Shown piece by piece: positions 1 through 52,400 of a stretch of DNA of 64,000 nt. The number at the start of each line of letters is the position of its first letter. Positions within the stretch are counted from its first letter, which is position 1. Position numbers and translations under genes: made by a program. Origin of the DNA: Mactra quadrangularis (lineage: Eukaryota; Mollusca; Bivalvia; Venerida; Mactridae); assembly GCA_025267735.1 (NCBI GenBank), contig CM046301.1:60965872-61029871 (forward strand), given 5' to 3'. Below the pieces are notes generated by a model, which saw only the letters and a list, made by a program, of their open reading frames with translations, did no database searches and was not told where the DNA came from.

Positions 1-1050
1 AATTGGAGTTCACCACAGGGAATCTTCACTGTTGTATATATTTCAGTGTTTGATTTAAAGTGATTATTACAATATTCGTATGCTTGAAGAGTTGAGTTCC
101 TTCATGTACCTCAAAAAGTAGTTTTTGTAGTAAGCTATACTGATTTCTCAAAAGTGATATATATACGAGTAATTGTCTGACAAAGTCAAACAATTAATAA
201 AACTACTAAAAGTACTGTTGCAAGGATTTTCTAAACAACGGAATTAAAATGTATACATATACCATGCCTTCCTAAAGGAGGACAAATGAAATTTTGAGAA
301 AGTAACTGATCATTTAAAGTTGATTTTAAGGTGCAATTACGAACTTGATATCAGTTGTTTATGTACTTTGCTTATTAAAGTGTACTGATCGAAATAAGTA
401 CGATTCTATGTAAACACAAAGAATTGTGTTGTAGCGTGGTAGTTTGCAGTGAATCATGTGACAGATACTAATGCGCAATATTTGTACAAAATATTTTTAT
501 TCCGTTCACAGTTAAATAATGTTTGATTGATGTAAACTAAGATTAAATATAATAATTCTAAGCATTTGTTTTAATTTGAGTTTGTTTCAAATCATCTACG
601 TTTGATAGTATACATATTTTTCTGTTGCACTATTTTCTTGGTCGCATAAATTTGACAGACCATTCATAGAGAAACAATTTTTTCAAAACAAATCCTTCCA
701 AAAAGCAGAAACAATAATAATGTTTTTTGTAAAAAAGTCCTATTTTAGAATAAAATTATTCATATAATCTCATATTTCTGCATGAGTTTCGTCTTCTTTC
801 GTAATTAAAACACAAACTTTCATTTTGCAAAACGTTAACTCATTTTGATGTGGATTTATAAAATTATTTGAATCTACGTAAATGCGTATCATAAGATTAT
901 CTTTCGATGTCGTAATGGCGTATTCACATCACCAACTCTTCTTGTAGTCTAGTTATATGTATCTGTAGTTATATATAATCTTATATCAGAATATTTGCAG
1001 ACATATCATATGGTTAATTTTTATGAACTAAGAAAGTTACAACAACATGT
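1..1050. other. AT-rich non-coding stretch, probably intron of the receptor gene
   Basis: No convincing reading frame is seen. The last part (about 1028-1059) reads like an intron tail and ends in ATATTTCAG at 1051-1059, the first copy of the acceptor that is later amplified. The receptor's signal peptide and any earlier exons must lie here unseen or, more likely, to the left of the window. Confidence 0.5.
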
Positions 1051-3448
1051 ATATTTCAGAATGTTTGCACAGATATCCACTGTCCACCTTTTACGTCTTT
1101 AACTAGAAAAGTGACATTTATATTTCAGAATGTTTGCACAGATATCCACTGTCCACCTTTTACGTCATTAACTAGAAAATTTACATTTATATTTCAGAAT
1201 GTTTGCACAGATATCCACTGTCCACCTTTTACGTCTTTAACTAGAAAAGTGACATTTATATTTCAGAATGTTTGCACAGATATCCACTGTCCACCTTTTA
1301 CGTCTTTAACTAGAAAATTTACATTTATATTTCAGAATGTTGGCACAGATATCCACTGTCCACCTTTTACGTCTTTAACTAGAAAAGTGACATTTATATT
1401 TCAGAATGTTTGCACAGATATCCACTGTCCACCTTTCACGTCTTTAACTAGAAAAGTGACATTTATATTTCAGAATGTTTGCACAGATATCCACTGTCCA
1501 CCTTTTACGTCTTTAACTAGAAAAGTGACATTTATATTTCAGAATGTTTGCACAGATATCCACTGTCCACCTTTTACGTCTTTAACTAGAAAAGTGACAT
1601 TTATATTTCAGAATGTTTGCACAGATATCCACTGTCCACCTTTTACGTCTTTAACTAGAAAAGTGACATTTATATTTCAGAATGTTTGCACAGATATCCA
1701 CTGTTCACCTTTTACGTCTTTAACTAGAAAATTTACATTTATATTTCAGAATGTTTGCACAGATATCCACTGTCCACCTTTTACGTCTTTAACTAGAAAA
1801 TTTACATTTATAATTCAGAATGTTTGCACAGATATCCACTGTCCACCTTTTACGTCTTTAACTAGAAAATTTACATGTATATTTCAGAATGTTTGCACAG
1901 ATATCCACTGTCCACCTTTTACGTCTTTAACTAGAAAAGTGACATTTATATTTCAGAATGTTTGCACAGATATCCACTGTCCACCTTTTACGTCTTTAAC
2001 TAGAAAATTTACATTTATATTTCAGAATGTTTGCACAGATATCCACTGTCCACCTTTTACGTCTTTAACTAGAAAATTTACATTTATATTTCAGAATGTT
2101 TGCACAGATATCCACTGTCCACCTTTTACGTCTTTAACTAGAAAAGTGACATTTATATTTCAGAATGTTTGCACAGATATCCACTGTCCACCTTTTACGT
2201 CTTTAACTAGAAAATTTACATTTATATTTCAGAATGTTGGCACAGATATCCACTGTCCACCTTTTACGTCTTTAACTAGAAAAGTGACATTTATATTTCA
2301 GAATGTTTGCACAGATATCCACTGTCCACCTTTTACGTCTTTAACTAGAAAAGTTACATTTATATTTCAGAATGTTGGCACAGATATCCACTGTCCACCT
2401 TTTACGTCTTTAACTAGAAAAGTGACATTTATATTTCAGAATGTTTGCACAGATATCCACTGTCCACCTTTTACGTCTTTAACTAGAAAAGTGACATTTA
2501 TATTTCAGAATGTTTGCACAGATATCCACTGTCCACCTTTTACGTCTTTAACTAGAAAATTTACATTTATATTTCAGAATGTTTGCACAGATATCCACTG
2601 TCCACCTTTTACGTCTTTAACTAGAAAATTTACATTTATATTTCAGAATGTTTGCACAGATATCCACTGTCCACCTTTTACGTCTTTAACTAGAAAAGTG
2701 ACATTTATATTTCAGAATGTTTGCACAGATATCCACTGTCCACCTTTTACGTCTTTAACTAGAAAATTTACATTTATATTTCAGAATGTTTGCACAGATA
2801 TCCACTGTCCACCTTTTACGTCTTTAACTAGAAAAGTGACATTTATATTTCAGAATGTTTGCACAGATATCCACTGTCCACCTTTTACGTCTTTAACTAG
2901 AAAATTTACATTTATATTTCAGAATGTTTGCACAGATATCCACTGTCCACCTTTTACGTCTTTAACTAGAAAATTTACATTTATAATTCAGAATGTTTGC
3001 ACAGATATCCACTGTCCACCTTTTACGTCTTTAACTAGAAAATTTACATTTATATTTCAGAATGTTTGCACAGATATCCACTGTCCACCTTTTACGTCTT
3101 TAACTAGAAAAGTGACATTTATATTTCAGAATGTTTGCACAGATATCCACTGTTCACCTTTTACGTCTTTAACTAGAAAATTTACATTTATATTTCAGAA
3201 TGTTTGCACAGATATCCACTGTCCACCTTTTACGTCTTTAACTAGAAAATTTACATTTATATTTCAGAATGTTTGCACAGATATCCACTGTCCACCTTTT
3301 ACGTCTTTAACTAGAAAATTTACATTTATATTTCAGAATGTTTGCACAGATATCCACTGTCCACCTTTTACGTCTTTAACTAGAAAATTTACATTTATAT
3401 TTCAGAATGTTTGCACAGATATCCACTGTCCACCTTTTACGTCTTTTA
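1051..3448 (+). repeat. 69-bp tandem array, 35 copies, each carrying a 3' splice acceptor
   Basis: Acceptor-to-exon positions run from 1060 to 3406 in exact 69-bp steps (34 intervals). Each unit holds TTTATATTTCAG, then AATGTTTGCACAGATATCC and about 30 more exon bases, then an intron-like AACTAGAAAA segment. Linkers come in three forms (GTGACA, TTTACA, one GTTACA). Two units have TATAATTCAG instead of TATATTTCAG. Shared variants recur (Cys to Gly in units 4, 17, 19; Pro to Ser in 9 and 30), which suggests block duplication. The AACTAGAAAAGTGAC part matches the unique intron tail before copy 1 (AACTAAGAAAGTTAC at about 1027-1041), so the unit was born from intron end plus exon start. Confidence 0.95.
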
Positions 3449-5130
3449 ACAATGGAGAGTGCCTATCGGACGTCTATCAGAGTGTTCAAGAAATGAGATA
3501 TAACTTGTATTTGAAAATTATACCATTACATTCTGTCACAGTGAAAATGGCTTATTTTGCCTCGGAGGCTATCACGAAATTTGTTGAAAACTTACCATCT
3601 ATATTCGGTGACATATGCGGAATTCAAGTAATGCTTAATTGTGGTGAGGATATTACGTTCAAATCTTATGAAGAAGTTCAAGCAACGGGGATTGAATACT
3701 TTAAAGCCAGGGTTCAATCGGTTGTGGACGACTTTCATTCTCAATTAAATGTTTATGAAAATTATTTTGTATTGCACAATACAAAACATACTATTTCGTA
3801 TTTGAACCAAGAAATTAACAAAGTTGAAACCTTTGAAGTAACCGTGTTGCTTGATGACTTTCATCCAGAGAGGTTCGACATCTTAGCTAACTTGTCGATA
3901 TCGAGTATTAACAATGATATGGGTCTGACTTATTCCGCCGATAACATCCTGCCTCTTAAATTTGTTCTTGATAATTTTATCGTTTCGGACAATTATTCTG
4001 GCTCGGATATCCCGTATATAACAGACCGTTTTCGAGGTTATAGGGGCTATGATTATTGTAACAATCCCAGCAAATACTCTGATATTAATGTAATGTATTA
4101 CAAAATGTGTCCGAAAGTTTTAATTCCACGGGACGAAGCTGTTTGGGTACGAACTGATAATGGTATAAGATTCGCTAAAGGAAATTTTATTGTTCCTAAT
4201 TCCGAATTTATCAAGGACTTCAATGATAATATAATGATTTGTTACGATGTATTCAAAGGATATATGTCACTATTCAAAGAAGCACCAACAGCAGCCATGC
4301 AAATAGTCTCCATAGTTTCCATTGTGTTTTCCTCAACGTCTATACTAGCTTTGTCCCTTACCCTCATTGTATTTCTCCTTATTCCAAGACTGCGACGTTT
4401 CCTTCCGGGTAAAATCAAAATATCACTGGTCCTTGCATTACTCTGTGCCCAGTGCATCTATTTAGTAGGCAGTTTTGCTGAAATACGCATTGGAACATGG
4501 GAATGCATTGTAATTGGTATTGCCTTGCACTATTTCTTGATTCTTTCTTTCGTGTGGATAAATATCTCGACATTTCATAATTATCATGAAATTACCGAAA
4601 TGAAGATTTTGTCAAATACTTCTGGAAAGCGTCGTTTAGTCGTTTATCATATTTACGCAGCGATAATGGCGGCACTTCCGGTTGTAATAAATATTATTGT
4701 TTCGCTTGTTACTTCCGGTACAACAGGTTATGGTGACGCACAGTGTTACATATCCTCCCAAATTATGATCGTCTGTACGTTCGCTATTCCTCTTGGGTTA
4801 GTTCTGTTAGGCAATGTTTCTATGTTTGTTTTGGTTGTTTTCAAAATCAAAAGTCCGACGACTGATAAGAACACTGTACAACGCGAACGCAATGATTTGG
4901 TTATAAACGTAAAGCTATCAATTCTTACGGCGATCTCTTGGTTGTTTGCGTTGAGTTTCTCTTGGACCAATATTACTCCATTGTCTTACATATCTATTGT
5001 TTTGAATGCTGGTCAGGGGGTATTCATTATGTATTCTTTCATATTAAATAAGCATGTGTTTAGCATGTTTAACAGTGATGTATTAGGTCGCAACAGCACA
5101 GACACGAGAGACACTGCACCTATTGAGTAG
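1060..5130 (+). CDS. Adhesion/Methuselah-like seven-transmembrane receptor, last exon
   Basis: The frame is open from 1027 and stops at TAG 5128-5130. It begins with 34 repeats of 23 residues, each holding a CTDIHC pair of cysteines, followed by a unique part. The unique part has an ectodomain of about 280 residues with scattered Cys, then seven hydrophobic segments between about 4299 and 5060: TM1 begins QIVSIVSIVF, TM2 KISLVLALLC, TM3 contains HYFLILSFVWINI, TM6 contains ILTAISWLF, and TM7 is followed by a short cytoplasmic tail ending at the stop. This pattern fits family B (secretin/adhesion/Methuselah-like) receptors, which signal through G proteins at the cell surface. I see no GPS autoproteolysis motif. 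The true exon start is uncertain: any of 35 CAG acceptors (first exon base 1060, last 3406) would keep the frame. The unique coding part from 3406 is secure; translation of the repeats is not. Earlier exons are missing. Confidence 0.8.
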   Translation, partial: NVCTDIHCPPFTSLTRKVTFIFQNVCTDIHCPPFTSLTRKFTFIFQNVCTDIHCPPFTSLTRKVTFIFQNVCTDIHCPPFTSLTRKFTFIFQNVGTDIHCPPFTSLTRKVTFIFQNVCTDIHCPPFTSLTRKVTFIFQNVCTDIHCPPFTSLTRKVTFIFQNVCTDIHCPPFTSLTRKVTFIFQNVCTDIHCPPFTSLTRKVTFIFQNVCTDIHCSPFTSLTRKFTFIFQNVCTDIHCPPFTSLTRKFTFIIQNVCTDIHCPPFTSLTRKFTCIFQNVCTDIHCPPFTSLTRKVTFIFQNVCTDIHCPPFTSLTRKFTFIFQNVCTDIHCPPFTSLTRKFTFIFQNVCTDIHCPPFTSLTRKVTFIFQNVCTDIHCPPFTSLTRKFTFIFQNVGTDIHCPPFTSLTRKVTFIFQNVCTDIHCPPFTSLTRKVTFIFQNVGTDIHCPPFTSLTRKVTFIFQNVCTDIHCPPFTSLTRKVTFIFQNVCTDIHCPPFTSLTRKFTFIFQNVCTDIHCPPFTSLTRKFTFIFQNVCTDIHCPPFTSLTRKVTFIFQNVCTDIHCPPFTSLTRKFTFIFQNVCTDIHCPPFTSLTRKVTFIFQNVCTDIHCPPFTSLTRKFTFIFQNVCTDIHCPPFTSLTRKFTFIIQNVCTDIHCPPFTSLTRKFTFIFQNVCTDIHCPPFTSLTRKVTFIFQNVCTDIHCSPFTSLTRKFTFIFQNVCTDIHCPPFTSLTRKFTFIFQNVCTDIHCPPFTSLTRKFTFIFQNVCTDIHCPPFTSLTRKFTFIFQNVCTDIHCPPFTSFNNGECLSDVYQSVQEMRYNLYLKIIPLHSVTVKMAYFASEAITKFVENLPSIFGDICGIQVMLNCGEDITFKSYEEVQATGIEYFKARVQSVVDDFHSQLNVYENYFVLHNTKHTISYLNQEINKVETFEVTVLLDDFHPERFDILANLSISSINNDMGLTYSADNILPLKFVLDNFIVSDNYSGSDIPYITDRFRGYRGYDYCNNPSKYSDINVMYYKMCPKVLIPRDEAVWVRTDNGIRFAKGNFIVPNSEFIKDFNDNIMICYDVFKGYMSLFKEAPTAAMQIVSIVSIVFSSTSILALSLTLIVFLLIPRLRRFLPGKIKISLVLALLCAQCIYLVGSFAEIRIGTWECIVIGIALHYFLILSFVWINISTFHNYHEITEMKILSNTSGKRRLVVYHIYAAIMAALPVVINIIVSLVTSGTTGYGDAQCYISSQIMIVCTFAIPLGLVLLGNVSMFVLVVFKIKSPTTDKNTVQRERNDLVINVKLSILTAISWLFALSFSWTNITPLSYISIVLNAGQGVFIMYSFILNKHVFSMFNSDVLGRNSTDTRDTAPIE

Positions 5131-5343: not shown

Positions 5344-5575
5344 AATCCGGGTCGATAGCGCAGTTGGTAGCGCGCCGGGATATAGAATCTCGTGCCCGAG
5401 GGAGTCCGGCTCGAATCCCATCCGAGGAGGTTATACCCTTCCATGAAAATTTGACAATAATGTCGTTTTTCCTCCAGTGATGAGATAATAAGCATTTATG
5501 ACATATGCCATTGCCTGTGGATGTCAAATGTTGATTATTTCTTGGGGGTTTTCTCAAACGAGTTTACAGAAAAAT
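5344..5575 (+). repeat. tRNA-derived SINE, family A
   Basis: The tRNA-like head begins CCGGGTCGATAGCGCAGTTG at 5347, with an A-box-like TAGCGCAGTTGGTAG and a B-box-like GGCTCGAATCC, followed by GAGGTTATACCCTTCCATG. The same head and body occur at 49482 and 63476. The 3' part diverges after about 5500, so this copy looks truncated or damaged. It is not called as a tRNA because the anticodon arm is poor and the family is dispersed. Confidence 0.75.
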
Positions 5576-19400: not shown

Positions 19401-22400
19401 TCTTGTTTTTTGCTACGAGATTGGGATATTTGATTCATCGGGGCTCGCAGAGTAGACAGGAGTACTCGAAGTAGACTGAATCAAACACGCCCCCTGTCTT
19501 GTGTCAAGGGGGATAATTCCATCATATACTGGTGTAATTGTACAAACATAGTTATTCTCCTTTGTTTCACTAGACTATCTTATGTCTGTTTGGTCTTAAA
19601 CTCAATATTAAATAGCCATTTTTTTTTCAAAAATAAATATGAATGACTTGTAAAAAGTATATTTATGACATATATTACACGTCTAAGAGGTGCTGGGTCT
19701 GTCTTTGGGTGTCTTGAATTAGTCTTGGGGTAAATATTTTGACCCCACAAGAACTATTACTCCATATTGTGCAGATTTTGAGTCATTCCAAATTTCTTAT
19801 TTTTTATGCAACCAAGTGTATTTAATCTGAGTAATCAACAGGCCTATTTTGCTTTGCCTAACAATAGTCTTGTTTGTTTTCATGTATTTCATTCTGGTTT
19901 CAGGACAATAGTTTGGTAGTATGGAAAGAGATTAATATGGCCAAGTTGGAAGAAAAAGCTAAGAGAGACGCAGTCAATGAGATTGAAATATTATTAGTTC
20001 TCAATCATGCTAACATTATAACATATTATAATAACTTTATGGATGGGGACACTTTACTCATTGAACTGGAATATGCTAATGGTTAGTACATACTAGATTT
20101 AAATTACTGTATTATAGTGGTTGTCCTAACAGATTATTTCAATTATATATTATTATCTGAAGTTTTTGGTGGTCTGAAATATTTTTTTGTCCTGGCAAAT
20201 CGAAAGTGGTTATGTCAGTCAACAAGACAATGGCAAAATCATAGAATGTATAGAATACATAAGTATTTCATTGGGATTATGCTCTATGAAAAGTGTGGCG
20301 ATTACTGAAGATGATGATGATAATGAAGATAATGATGATGAAGATGACGATGATGATGATGAATGTAAAGGGACCAACTTGAGTTAACTCAAACTTACTT
20401 AAAATTTGGCTAAATGATGGCTACTCTAAGAATTCTTAAAAAGAGTGTAGGCCTAGATGATTTTCTTGATGCTTCTTAAACTAGTTAGTTTTTTTACAGT
20501 TCTTTTATTGCAATATATATGTTAAGTTATATTCCTTTTCCATTTGTTTAGGCTCATCTAATGTGCTACAGTATTTTATATTTAAAAAAATGATTATATA
20601 TTGAGGGTTGCCCACAAGACTGTAGTAAGTGCATTGCATTAAAGAGCAAGTTACGGTAGTCTTGCGGGCAACCCTCGATATGTGTATATGTATTTCATTC
20701 AATTTATCTTGATTGTGTTAGGAAATCAAACTGTTACTTGTATTACTTTATTTTCCAGGAGGTACATTGGCTCAGAAGATAAATTCACAGAAAGAATTAT
20801 TTGAAGAAGAGGTTATTTTATAAGCTTAATAACTTTGTTTAAATTCTTTCAATGAACACAGGCATGTTTTAGGCATTTCACAGTGGCTACTTCACCCGAC
20901 ACTTGCTCTTACTTTAACTATTCAAAACCTGTCATTATTTTCTGTATGCAATAAAGGACATGTGTAATATGATTCAATTAAAAGTATCAATTATGTAATC
21001 AGAAAGATCCCTAGCATAGTGTTGGGATCAAAATAGTAGCTTTGATCTTTTAACTTGTATATATTCATATGATACAATGTAATTAGGTCATGCAATAACG
21101 CAATTTTGTTAAATGTCTGCATGTGCTTAGGTTTTAGAGTCCTCAATAAAAAAAATGTTGGTGATTTTTTTTTTAAATAATTCTGCTGTTCTTGGATTTG
21201 ATAACAAAATTGTGTTCTACATAAGCAATTTATCATAACTGTGTCATTAATACAATGTATATTTTATGTGAAAAAAACTTGAGTCATTTCATATTAAACT
21301 GTATAAGTCTGTGCTTAAACTAGTAATTTCATAAGTAATTTAGACCATTGTTTCATATTATGATGTTTTTCCATTAAACATATATAATGCATTGTTTTTG
21401 TCATAAAATATTTGTGGTTTTGTTTTCAGTTTGTATGTTTTTGTGAATTGGTACCTAGGTTTGTCAAACTTGAGTTGATGCTTAACAAAATTCCAATTTG
21501 GCATGGCCTTAGAGGTTCCTTGGGAAAACTGCACTACCCTTATGAATTAGTCACATGTCTTTGGTCACAAAGGATTACTTTGTTAAACAAATGAGCCACT
21601 TGTCTAAAGATGTGTTTATAGTAGCCTCAATGACAGTTGCCCCACAATAGATAAAGTTAGTATCATTATGTTATTCTAACTGCAATATAATATATCTTAT
21701 TTTTAATTTTAAGATATTTGAACTTACATATTTTTTTTTACTTTTAGGTTGTAAAATGGTACTTGTTCCAATTAACATCTGCTTTGGCTCATTGTCATGA
21801 ACATGGTATAATTCATCGTGATGTAAAATGTTTAAATATATTTATGACTAAAACAGATTTGTTAAAACTTGGTGATTTTGGTATATCTAAAGTTTTAGAA
21901 TCCACTTCACAAATGGCTGAAACAGTAAGTTATGATAACTTCCTTGGATATTTCATCCATTGTTATTTAAAGTTGCACTGGACATTCTCATAGTCTGACA
22001 CAAACAAGACTGTAATTTTTAGGAACCACACTGAATTATTTCTCCTTGAAAAAATGATTAGAGCCTAAATAAATAAGCCAATTGTAAGCTGATGTTTTAA
22101 GTTTTCAACAATTTTTAAATTGTTAAGTAACAATAATAATATATTCCACGCAAACAAGCAGGCTGAGATGGCTTGGTCACATAGAATGCAGGATAAGTTG
22201 GACCTCCAAAGTAAAAAATTTAAACATCACAGCACACTGAGGCCTAGACAGACCAAAGTTAACCTGGGATGACCTGGTCAAGCATGATCGGCTAGAACTT
22301 CAAATGGAGGACACCAACCCTCTGGACCACTAGTCATGGAGAGGAAGACTCTGATCCAGACGACACAGACAGGCCTCACCCTTGCCTAAGGATTAATCAA

Positions 22401-46400: not shown

Positions 46401-49400
46401 TTTTTTTGTGCTTGCCCCAACCAAATGTTTACTGGAAGTAACAATTGCGCGAACAAAAATATAAGTCATTAGAGGCAATTGGACAACCTTTAGTGTAGAG
46501 CCATGCATCTTACATTTCAAAAGCCGCCCGGCTAGCTCAGTTGGCAAGTCTACTGATCGAGGGGTCGTGGGAAAGTAAACTAAAGACAGTATGCGCTTAG
46601 TAGTTGGTTCTGGATTTAGCTTTTCCGGGAGGAGTGAGTAGGTTGACTGACCGCCATTATATGACCTATAATTGTGTTGCTACGGTGTTAAACCCAACGA
46701 ACAAACAAACTTACATTTCAATGTTGTATTTCAGTAAGTATGACTGATGTAGATTCCGGGGCAGGGTCCAGTGAGTATATAGAAGAGGAGTATATAGACA
46801 ACAAAGAGAAGACAAACAATATCAATGGTATAGATGAAGTCTTCCTTACAAAAAGTAATGATTCTGGTAAACCTGTGTCACCTGATGGTTCTAATTCTTT
46901 CTTGTTATCACCAAATACTGAAACACCTCCTGAAGCCACTTCTGGTGGATTTGTGGCTCAAGATGCTGAAGACAGTCTACCACCATGGCTTGAAGCTGTA
47001 AGTTATAGTTTACTCATTATACCTCCTTCCCTCTGTCTGTCTCCATGGCTTGAAGCTGTAAGTTATAGTTTACTCATTATACCTCTTTCCCTCTGTCTAT
47101 CACCATGGCTTTAAGCTGTAAGTTATAGTTTACTCATTATACCTCCTTCCCTCTATCTATCACCATGGCTTGAAGCTGTAAGTTATAGTTTACTCATTAT
47201 ACCTCCTTCCCTCTGTCTGTCACCATGGCTTGAAGCTGTAAGTTATAGTTTACTCATTATACATCCCTCTCTTTGTCTGTCACCATGGCTTGAAGCTGTA
47301 AGTTATAGTTTACTCATTATACCTCCTTCCCTCTGTCTATCACCATGGCTTGAAGCTGTAAGTTATAGTTTACTCATTATACCTCCTTCCCTCTGTCTAT
47401 CACCATGGCTTGAAGCTGTAAGTTATAGTTTACTCATTATACCTCCTTCCCTTTGTCTGCCTCCATGGCTTGAAGCTGTAAGTTATAGTTTACTCATTAT
47501 ACCTCCTTCCCTTTGTCTACCACCATGGCTTGAAGCTGTAAGTTATAGTTTACTCATTATACCTCCTTCCCTTTGTCTGCCTCCATGGCTTGAAGCTGTA
47601 AGTTATAGTTTACTCATTATACCTCCTTCCCTTTGTCTGTCACCATGGCTTGAAGCTGTAAGTTATAGTTTACTCATTATACCTCCTTCCCTTTGTCTAC
47701 CACCATGGCTTGAAGCTGTAAGTTATAGTTTACTCATTATACCTCCTTCCCTCTGTCTATCACCATGGCTTGAAGCTGTATGTTATAGTTAACTCATTAT
47801 ACCTCCTTCCCTCTGTCTATCACCATGGCTTGAAGCTGTAAGTTATAGTTTACTCATTATACCTCCTTCCCTCTGTCTATCACCATGGCTTGAAGCTGTA
47901 AGTTATAGTTTACTCATTATACCTCCCTCCTTCTGTCTGCCTCCATGGCTTGAAGCTGTAAGTTATAGTTTACTCATTATACCTCCCTCCCTCTGTCTAT
48001 CACCATGGCTTGAAGCTGTAAGTTATAGTTTGCTCATTATACCTCCTCCCTCTGTCTATCACCATGGCTTGAAGCTGTAAGTTATAGTTTACTCATTATA
48101 CCTCCTTCCCTCTGTCTATCACCATGGCTCGAAGCTGTAAGTTATAGTTTACTCATTATACCTCCTTCCCTCTGTCTATCACCATGGCTTGAAGCTGTTA
48201 GTTATAGTTTACTCATTATACCTCCTTCCCTCTGTCTATCACCATGGCCTGAAGCCGTAAGTTATAGTTTACTCATTATACCTCCTTCCCTCTGTCTATC
48301 ACCATGGCTTGAAGCTGTTAGTTATAGTTTACTCATTATACCTCCTTCCCTCTGTCTATCACCATGGCCTGAAGCCGTAAGTTATAGTTTACTCATTATA
48401 CCTCCTTCCCTCTGTCTATCACCATGGCTTGAAGCTGTTAGTTATAGTTTACTCATTATACCTCCTTCCCTCTGTCTATCACCATGGCCTGAAGCCGTAA
48501 GTTATAGTTTACTCATTATACCTCCTTCCCTCTGTCTATCACCATAGCTTGAAGCTGTAAGTTGTACTCATTACATGTCTCTCCCTAAGCTAAAATAATG
48601 TTCATCACTATGACTTGAAGCCATAACTTGAAGATAACTTATCAAACAATCGTTGCATGTGCTACAAAAATTTCTAGCATATGGGTGTAAGTTTGACTGT
48701 TAGCTGCAAATGTTGGGTTACTAACAAGTCTCATGATAGTGGTTACCCAGATACTAGTTACCCTGGTTTAATTATGTTCCACTGTTAGGTCTTTAAAATT
48801 GATGGCATTAATAGCAGAATGTTCCTAATATTGAGATATTTTTCTTTTCAAATCTAGCAGTTAGTACTTTAAAAGTTGCACAATTTTGCAGTAAACAATG
48901 TGATCTTTAATTGTAGCAGAACTCTGTTATTTACATGTATGACATAAGCTGAAAACTTATTCATACTCTATGAGTTACCTTTGTGCATGATTGTTATGTT
49001 ATCTTAAATATTTTGAATCAAATATATCAACAATTCTCTCATACTCTTTATGTTCTGGTTTTTGCTTTTCTATTGTAGGAATTAGAAGATGATTTCATTC
49101 CAGTTCCAGTGGATTTTGTAATACAGTCACCAGGAGTGGGACCTTTTCCAGCTCCTAACGTGACCCCAGATGGCTTTCAGTGGCAAGTGAATAGTCCTCC
49201 TCCTGTACTTACACAATCACCAAATGTTGTCAACTCTGATGTTTCACCTGGCAATTTTACTGATGATACTCATGACTCTCTTGTGAATAATGTACGTGAT
49301 TTTGAATGATTATTGGTTTCTATATGAACATTTTATTGGGTCATGATCAATCTGATTTAAAATGTAATCTAAAATTATTCACTTGCACACTCTCTTATTT

Positions 49401-52400
49401 TAGATCTGGCTTCTTCATATTATGGGTCAAATTCAGCTGACCAATGCTTTTATAATATTAATGACGTGACAAAATCATTTTAGCCCGGGTCGATAGCGCA
49501 GTTGGTAGCGCGCCGGGATTTGGAATCTCGTGGTCAAGGGGGTGCGCACTGGGTTGGAATCCCACCCGGAGAGGTTATACCCTTCCATGAAAATTTGACA
49601 ATAATGTCGATTTTCCTCTATTGATTAGATAATATGGAGAAGTTTCCAGCCTTGTGGAAGGGTAGGTGAGTACTGGTTATAGACAATGGTCCAGGAAAGC
49701 TAGGTTAGGTGCACTGGATGCCGTAAAATGACCTAAAATTGTGTTGACACGGCGTTAACTCCAATAAATAAATAAATAGACAAAATCATTTTGTTCAGTA
49801 ACTTATTTGCATCATCTTTGTCACGCAATTAGCAAAGAGCCATGAAATCCCAGTCTGTGAATAAACAACCTTCAAATTTACTTGCAAATCTCTGTCAAAA
49901 AAGAATTTACGAAATCAAGATGCTATTGATAGTGTTTTATCTTGATAAAAGCTACACATTGATTGGTCAACACAAAGGTCATCTTGATGTGACCCTTAGA
50001 GCAACCATTAGAGATCCTATATGACAGTGCTCTATATGATATCTGTTTACAGAGATTTGGTCATATCATGTCAGCCAACTCACCTAACCTAGCCATCTTG
50101 AATGTTTGTCTGCAAACAGTACTCACCTAACATTCCACAAGGCAGATAAATAATTTTTAGTTATCGCTAAAGTTAAAAAGACAATAAATGATATACATAT
50201 ATGAAAATGTTTGAAATACCTTTATAAATGCCTGATCACTGATTAGCATTTTTGAAGAGCATTTTTGCAGAAAATGAAATCTGAAGTATATTAAACTTAA
50301 TTACAGTTATTCAGTTTCAGATCCTTTGATATAAAGATCAGTATAATATGATTTTAATACATTTAAAATAATAGAACACCTTAGAGGTGATCAGGATTCA
50401 GATTACCTGCATATCATAACCTCTAATTGTTGTCAGTTTATAGTCTGACAAAACTGACCTCATACAGGTCAACCTTATTTCTAACCATCCAATCTGTTTG
50501 ACTAAGAAAAAGAAAATGTTTTAGAACTGTAAATGTAAGACATGCTTACTTACATACATACATATCCTGAGTTTATTTGTCATCTGCTGCGGGTGTCCCA
50601 GATACTGAGGTCGGCAGCAGGCGTCTTGAACGTCTAACACCAGCTCTCCATCCGTCCCTATTGTGTGGACTGGTATTGCCCATACCACACACACTTAAAT
50701 CGGTCTTGATGCAATCAGACCAAGATTTTCTAGGTCTTCCACGCCTACGGGCCCTTGGAATATCCATGTTCATAATGGTGTTGGTACAATTGTTACGAGA
50801 AGCATGGCCAAACCACCTCAGGCGTTTGGTACGAAGAACTATGGCTATCTCTTAAATTCCTAGTTTGGTGTACAGAGAATCTGTGGTGACATTATCATTA
50901 GGATTAACACCGCAGATCCAACGGACCATGGCTCTATCATTACGTTGTAATCAATGTAGGTCTGAAGTGGACGGTAATATTACAGTCAAAATTAAATTCA
51001 TGTTATCAACCGGGATCGATTAGGAGGCTCTCTGATAAAGGGCAAACATGACACTAACTATTACCCTTCTGCAAAAGAAAACCAAATCAGAGAACAAGAG
51101 ATTGCTTTTCTGTAATTTTGATTAATGGTTTCTCATTCACTATTCTGAAAAAAATTAATTAAAATGTTTCTATGACATTGCATCTGTTACATGTTATGAT
51201 ATGTTATGGATGAATCACATTACTATTACTAATTGCAGGTTGAAGAAAATTCATCTAAAACTATTGAAGATTTGAAATCTAGAATAGCTGAACTAGAACT
51301 CACAAATAAAAAGGTATTGTCTGATTTTCATCATTCATTTTATGTTTTATACCATCAAGCAGATGACCCTCACAGTACCCATTTATACCTAGGTGGAGTG
51401 AAACAGTTTACAGTAGATATTATTTTTTGCTCAAGGTAATTAGCAGTGACTAGTGGGGTTTGCACCTCAGACTTTTCGACCCCTACCACTGGACCACTGC
51501 TCGTAATTAAGTTTGACACTTGATATTAGATTCATAGTCTGCCTTTATGTGTAGACCACTTTTATTATTGCAAAATTATTGGATTTTTATGCTTTATAAA
51601 ACCTTTAAGCGTGAGGAGAAAAAGATCTTTTTAATAAGACCATTCCTCTTTAAATAATATCAATTTTGATGGTCACAATGGTAGACCTCTACTTTATGTT
51701 TAGATATTGTATTGTTATCAAGTACAAAGAATGATTCATTATTTCAGCTTCAAGCTACATTTGAGGACCAAGTTAATGTCTTACAATCAAGAATACAAGT
51801 ATTAGAAGAAGAAAATAAAAAAGTAAGTAGATTAAACTGAAGGAGGTATAAATGAGATCATGTGGCTAGTTTTAACCTGGCATAGTCATGGTTTGATTCC
51901 CTAAAACTTAGACATGCATATATTTTATTCCGCATGTGCATAAAGAAGAAACTAATTTGACTAAAGAAAACTGGTTTGTGAAATGGGTCATTATGAAATG
52001 ATGTTTGTTTGTTTATTTTGTTGGGTTTAGCACCATAGCAACACAATGTATAGGTCATATAACGGCAGTCAGTCAACGTACTCACTCCTCCTGGAAAGGC
52101 TTTATCTCTGGATTTAAGCTGTTAAGCGCATACTTTCGTTAGTGACTGATAAATGCCCTACATAATTAAAAATCAATGATGAAATAGTTATAAACTCAAT
52201 GATACCACTAAAATCTCAAAGAAAACACTTCTGAGAATTCATTACAAATTCAAAATTTGAGGAATATTGCGTTCCACAATCTTTGAAAAATAAACTAAAA
52301 TACAGCATTTTACAGTTAATGCATTTGATTATAATATTTATAAGGAGCAGCCTTTCCCTTGAAAGATCTATTTAATAACATTTTTTTAAAATAACTTCTA

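Follow-up and report, generated by a model that had tools for sequence, protein, structure and literature searches.

Minisatellite-like repeats that lie across intron-exon borders have been described in amphioxus as "mirages"; they can occupy either border, and the splice signal is often part of what is repeated (PMC3087553; PMC3902484). Mirages are reported in the globin genes BflGb6 and BflGb9 and in the Adh3, troponin C and PGBD5 genes, their inner copies are alike and the boundary copies stand outside homogenisation, regular splicing is reported to be undisturbed, and the repeats are proposed to be seeds of new introns (PMC3087553; PMC3902484). We analysed a 64,000-nucleotide stretch of the genome of the bivalve Mactra quadrangularis (the window), whose GC content of 33.4% and SINE-like tails are reminiscent of a bivalve and in which one receptor gene, W, carries an array of splice acceptors and, about 44 kb away, a mirror array repeats a splice donor. 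The likeness extends to both borders: BflGb6 repeats the 3' end of an intron with the 5' part of an exon, as does the acceptor array, and in BflGb9, as in the donor array, it is an exon's 3' border that is repeated. The dimensions differ: the two BflGb6 haplotypes contain 6 and 3 units, each 150-160 bp long, and Adh3 units measure 10-72 bp, whereas Mactra has 35 units of 69 bp in one array and, in the other, 27 donors with a 60-bp period. The Mactra case also differs from the mirages in that one paralog (A) still preserves an older state with two copies, and in that no unit of the W acceptor array leaves the frame or closes it.

Turri reportedly described in 1995 multiple splice donors in the minisatellite of human IFI6 (6-16). 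That minisatellite resembles the W array in repeating a splice site, but it repeats donors where the W array repeats acceptors, and its unit is 12 bp. The IFI6 units are reported to serve as splice donors (PMC4526556). Human genes in segmental duplications also carry internal tandem repeats where exons meet introns, and these can yield alternative splicing or new introns; these average four units of 30 bp, however, and the part of the source available describes no 35-fold acceptor array (PMC2812944). A narrow literature search returned no 3' border array of such size and no molluscan example. The W array is a large and homogeneous border minisatellite of the mirage type, that is, a known kind of structure with an unusually clear history. 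A single gene family presents three stages, the single border (nine paralogs), the two-copy border (paralog A) and the 35-copy border (W), and this series offers a natural view of the birth of a border minisatellite. Thirty-five near-identical acceptors in one intron also constitute a natural test of which of many almost equivalent sites the spliceosome picks, and of whether intron DNA can end up in protein.

The acceptor array and the receptor gene

Tandem Repeats Finder (TRF) delineated a 69-bp unit present in 34.8 copies at window positions 1045-3446, with 97% matches and 0% indels. One acceptor occurs per 69 bases from 1059 to 3405, 35 in all, reading TTTCAG/AAT in 33 cases and ATTCAG/AAT in two (the slash marks the border); CAG/AAT is intact in 35/35, so the splice signal is present in the units. 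The window contains the motif TATATTTCAG 36 times, and 33 of these occurrences are acceptors of the array; 100 shuffles gave 0.46 on average, which rules out a chance motif as the source of the row. The 34 full units (1060..3405, plus strand) each end in an acceptor and, as TRF and the comparison of units indicate, each combines 41-42 exon bases (41 of them identical) with about 27 bases of intron tail. An open frame (1027-5130), the only one among the six frames of the unit, runs through all 34 units into a secretin-family 7TM domain. The TRF result, the acceptor count, the shuffles and this frame bear out what the earlier note had proposed from the letters: 35 in-frame acceptors at a 69-bp period, preserving the frame whichever is used. 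Its division of the unit into exon and intron was likewise correct, exon 2 of paralogs A and B starting at the same base.

Across the 34 full units, variation is confined to 8 of the 69 positions. Positions 52 and 54 almost always co-vary (TTT in 18 units, GTG in 15, GTT in 1), so that the context before the 35 acceptors reads TTTAC 18 times, GTGAC 15 times and GTTAC once, the first acceptor standing apart. The inner units are homogenised and a diverged edge copy (copy 0, below) is left out. Counted back from where the AG ends, each unit type holds a branch-point-like yTnAy motif at 26 nt, and T units have an additional one at 14 nt. Higher-order block structure of the unit types was not significant (257 of 2000 shuffles), and the G and T units showed no significant polarity from one end of the array to the other (p=0.065).

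Exon 2 (3406..5130, plus strand, stop codon included), whose first 41-42 bases are copy 35, encodes the remaining extracellular part and the 7TM domain (7tm_2, PF00002, E=2e-14 in Pfam); the nearest solved sequence in the PDB is ADGRG2 (6.7e-21). At E<=1, Pfam returned 7tm_2 alone for exon 2, without a GAIN/GPS domain, which could escape if diverged, and no match for the exon 1 product. The public protein set yielded only two remote 7TM matches and was uninformative on the border. A search of the window's own genome (979 Mb, 447 contigs) gave 74 protein matches of exon 2, of which the 11 that begin at residue 1-3, W and 10 others, were taken as the paralog set; the remaining 63 match later parts only and were left out. 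The 10 paralogs are 28-68% identical. Each of them has one CAG acceptor at the homologous base, at the start of exon 2, and an in-frame stop 15-90 nt upstream of it. TRF found no tandem repeat in the 1500 bases upstream of the acceptor in any of the 10, so among these 11 genes the array is confined to W. Because a homologous single-copy acceptor, preceded by stops, is found in all 10 paralogs, the exon-intron border is real.

Upstream stretches were compared in W, A and B, and each contains a long conserved ORF, which constitutes exon 1 (55% identity between W and A, E 1.7e-151) and ends in a conserved phase-0 GTAAGT donor. In W this ORF ends at C9:60963472, upstream of the window; its start, judged by eye, looks like a signal peptide. 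On the strength of this conservation, W is a two-exon gene, and the 3' splice site that the earlier note had postulated receives support from both sides, from the paralog acceptors and from the conserved upstream exon and donor. The predicted product comprises 367 residues from exon 1 followed by 574 if the last acceptor is used, or by 1356 if the first is. Values of dN 0.20 and dS 0.40 between W and A make the receptor look constrained. Two closely related pairs were also noted among the receptor paralogs (C9:69753736 with C9:64179696, and C10:1476775 with C10:1471476).

An older second copy of the border

The sequence just upstream of the array had been regarded as a unique intron tail. It is actually the end of a diverged full copy (copy 0, 981..1059, plus strand), which aligns in register with the whole 69-bp unit and ends in the first array acceptor at 1059. 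None of 5000 shuffles equalled the score of its exon-like half, nor did any of 9566 other stretches of the window, and for its tail half the count was 0 of 12,090 window stretches; with the place left free the result is weaker, with 0 of 500 shuffles as good when the tail region is included and 2 of 500 when it is not. A further old copy at 37-52 was considered and rejected as not significant, because 26 of 500 shuffles did equally well. In paralog A a homologous second copy stands 65 nt before the acceptor and covers 25 bases, two of them mismatched; the corresponding spacing in W is 70 nt. For W and for A, 0 of 2000 shuffles equalled the second copy; it was not detected in the other nine paralogs, for which 707-1786 of 2000 shuffles were as good. 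W and A are sisters with 98/98 support in a tree in which long branches, A among them, are flagged. The presence of the copy in W and A only, together with their sister relation, indicates that the two-copy border predates the W/A split. Paralog B may retain a worn remnant of the second copy, which would make it older than the ancestor of W and A.

The 65-70 nt spacing of the two-copy state is close to the 69-bp period of the array. Since the tail before the array is part of an older copy of the border, one that paralog A has as well, the array probably grew from a two-copy repeat. The earlier note had suggested a join of exon to intron at a small shared motif; such a chance join by itself is a less probable start than the repeat spaced 65-70 nt. 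The history may be reconstructed as follows: (i), in the ancestor of W and A, part of the exon 2 border would have been duplicated 65-70 nt upstream, within the intron; (ii), in W only, among the 11 genes, the two copies would have given rise to 35 through slippage or unequal exchange; and (iii), the same process would keep the units alike, the copy at the intron-side edge having decayed.

Acceptor choice and coding potential of the units

Acceptor strength was estimated with a home-made pyrimidine score, and pyrimidines were counted in the 15 bases before each acceptor. The last acceptor (TATATTTCAG, 3396..3405, plus strand), homologous to the single acceptor of the 10 paralogs, scores 10.7 with 11/15 pyrimidines, inside the 8.1-13.4 range of those paralogs. 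The first acceptor has the lowest score (5.2, 8/15 pyrimidines) and the 15 G-type acceptors score 6.3 (9/15); both fall below all 10 paralogs, which have 10-13 of 15. We favour, with a probability of roughly 0.68, a border minisatellite of the mirage type that arose by an older duplication, expanded in W alone of the 11 genes and is normally intronic because splicing goes to the last or another of the stronger acceptors. The spliceosome would most likely join exon 1 to 3405, the probable functional site, or to another stronger acceptor, and the open frame would make slips to other acceptors tolerable. Several points run the other way, among them the confidence of a six-unit structural model (below). 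Of two equal acceptors the upstream one is often favoured, a preference that would place the array within an exon. That all 34 units are open in frame, none broken, counts weakly against an intronic array; the absence of stops is uninformative, as only 7 of the 207 single changes in a unit create one. Either way, the acceptor in use most likely belongs to the repeated family.

Splicing to many of the 35 acceptors would insert 0 to 34 extra 23-residue extracellular units between the exon 1 and exon 2 products. The near-identity of the acceptors, 18 of them TTTAC and 15 of those with a well-scoring sequence, the branch-point-like motif in every unit type, the frame that stays open for any acceptor chosen and the reported use of IFI6 units as alternative donors (PMC4526556) are all consistent with such a ladder. 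We nevertheless consider it unlikely: the first and the 15 G-type acceptors score below every paralog, and border repeats in amphioxus are reported to leave splicing unaffected (PMC3087553). It is rather doubtful, too, that the ladder is tunable and variable in copy number, with 18 TTTAC and 15 GTGAC acceptors competing, receptors varying by cell or individual in partly intron-derived 23-residue inserts, and exon borders acting as recurrent birthplaces of minisatellites in the genome.

Each unit retains just the first 13-14 residues of the conserved exon 2 start, without the third Cys of the C-x4-C-...-C start of the paralogs, and ends in translated intron; the first Cys is replaced by Gly in 3 of 34 units. 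Two of the eight variable positions are silent, or three if GTT is an intermediate between GTG and TTT (position 54), close to the 21% expected of neutral single changes and resembling drift. These features do not favour the splice-tunable stalk of Cys-pair repeats that had been imagined for the receptor, and a tunable stalk is best kept as a testable, unlikely extra. They also tend to weigh against a constitutively coding minisatellite, in which splicing would link exon 1 to 1059 and all 782 residues of the array would always be part of the receptor. Upstream of 1059 the open lead contains two more AGs, both of them AAG sites, so an in-frame whole-array transcript from exon 1 must enter near 1059, at the acceptor with the lowest score. 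The frame is open across all 34 units, as this reading demands, and a single-sequence model of six units was beta-rich and fairly confident (pLDDT 80.5, pTM 0.79) compared with a mirror-array control (pLDDT 60.9, pTM 0.44). Single-sequence AlphaFold2, however, tends toward confident solenoids on perfect repeats, and a fold search with the six-unit model gave 76 PDB matches at E<=10 and none at E<=0.001. We regard permanent inclusion of the array as improbable. An unspliced transcript from an internal promoter, translated from the ATG at 3493, which no earlier in-frame ATG precedes within the open frame, is scarcely credible, given that exon 1 and the phase of its donor are conserved in A and B, that the acceptor is found in 10/10 paralogs and that codons upstream of 3493 are conserved (e.g. 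NVC.DIHCPP in W, A and B).

The donor array and minisatellites elsewhere

The mirror array (46998..48562, plus strand) follows an exon (46735..46997, plus strand) whose 3' border it amplifies. Its 60-bp unit consists of the last exon bases and the donor, and it comprises 27 donors including the exon's own: 20 GCT/GTAAGT, 3 GCC/GTAAGT, 3 GTTAGT and 1 GTATGT. The sequence is stop-free only before donors 1 and 2, a stop preceding donor 3, and a later 1-bp deletion shifts the frame; that donors beyond the second are preceded by stops was counted in favour of the intronic, mirage-type reading. A decayed copy lies at 48618, on the intron side, as in the acceptor array. The next exon (49079..49291, plus strand) would be in phase 0, and neither it nor the amplified exon has a Pfam match. 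Upstream on the same strand are RCC1 exons (Pfam) and, at 21748-21990, an exon that encodes kinase sequence (Pkinase, 6.9e-16 in Pfam; nearest solved sequences GCN2, 1e-12, and NEK1, 2e-12). We infer that the kinase, RCC1 and array-flanking exons form one gene, presumably of the NEK8/NEK9 type.

The donor array raises the question of whether border repeats are common in the Mactra genome. We compiled minisatellites in 253,570 bases, made up of the window and loci L009-L016 and L020-L046, with 1000 bases counted twice and loci that are no random sample. The period is divisible by 3 in 8 of 9 rows (69, 60, 18, 30, 51, 33, 45 and 57), the exception, 44, being homologous to the 45-bp row, and several of the divisible rows lie at sites without a recognised gene. 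Since 8 of 9 rows share it, the divisibility of 69 by 3 is weak evidence. The argument that two large border arrays are very improbable by chance is weakened by the frequency of arrays (9 rows in 253,570 bases).

Other repeats were noted near members of the receptor family and in the window. A 57-bp array of about 25 copies starts at the stop codon of the 7TM paralog at C10:13856307, on the minus strand (L041 1-1447), and an 18-bp array of about 121 copies lies upstream of the receptor gene (L009 1967-4152). Two stretches of the window (5349-5450 and 49485-49600) are similar to each other and, by eye, resemble tRNA-like SINEs.
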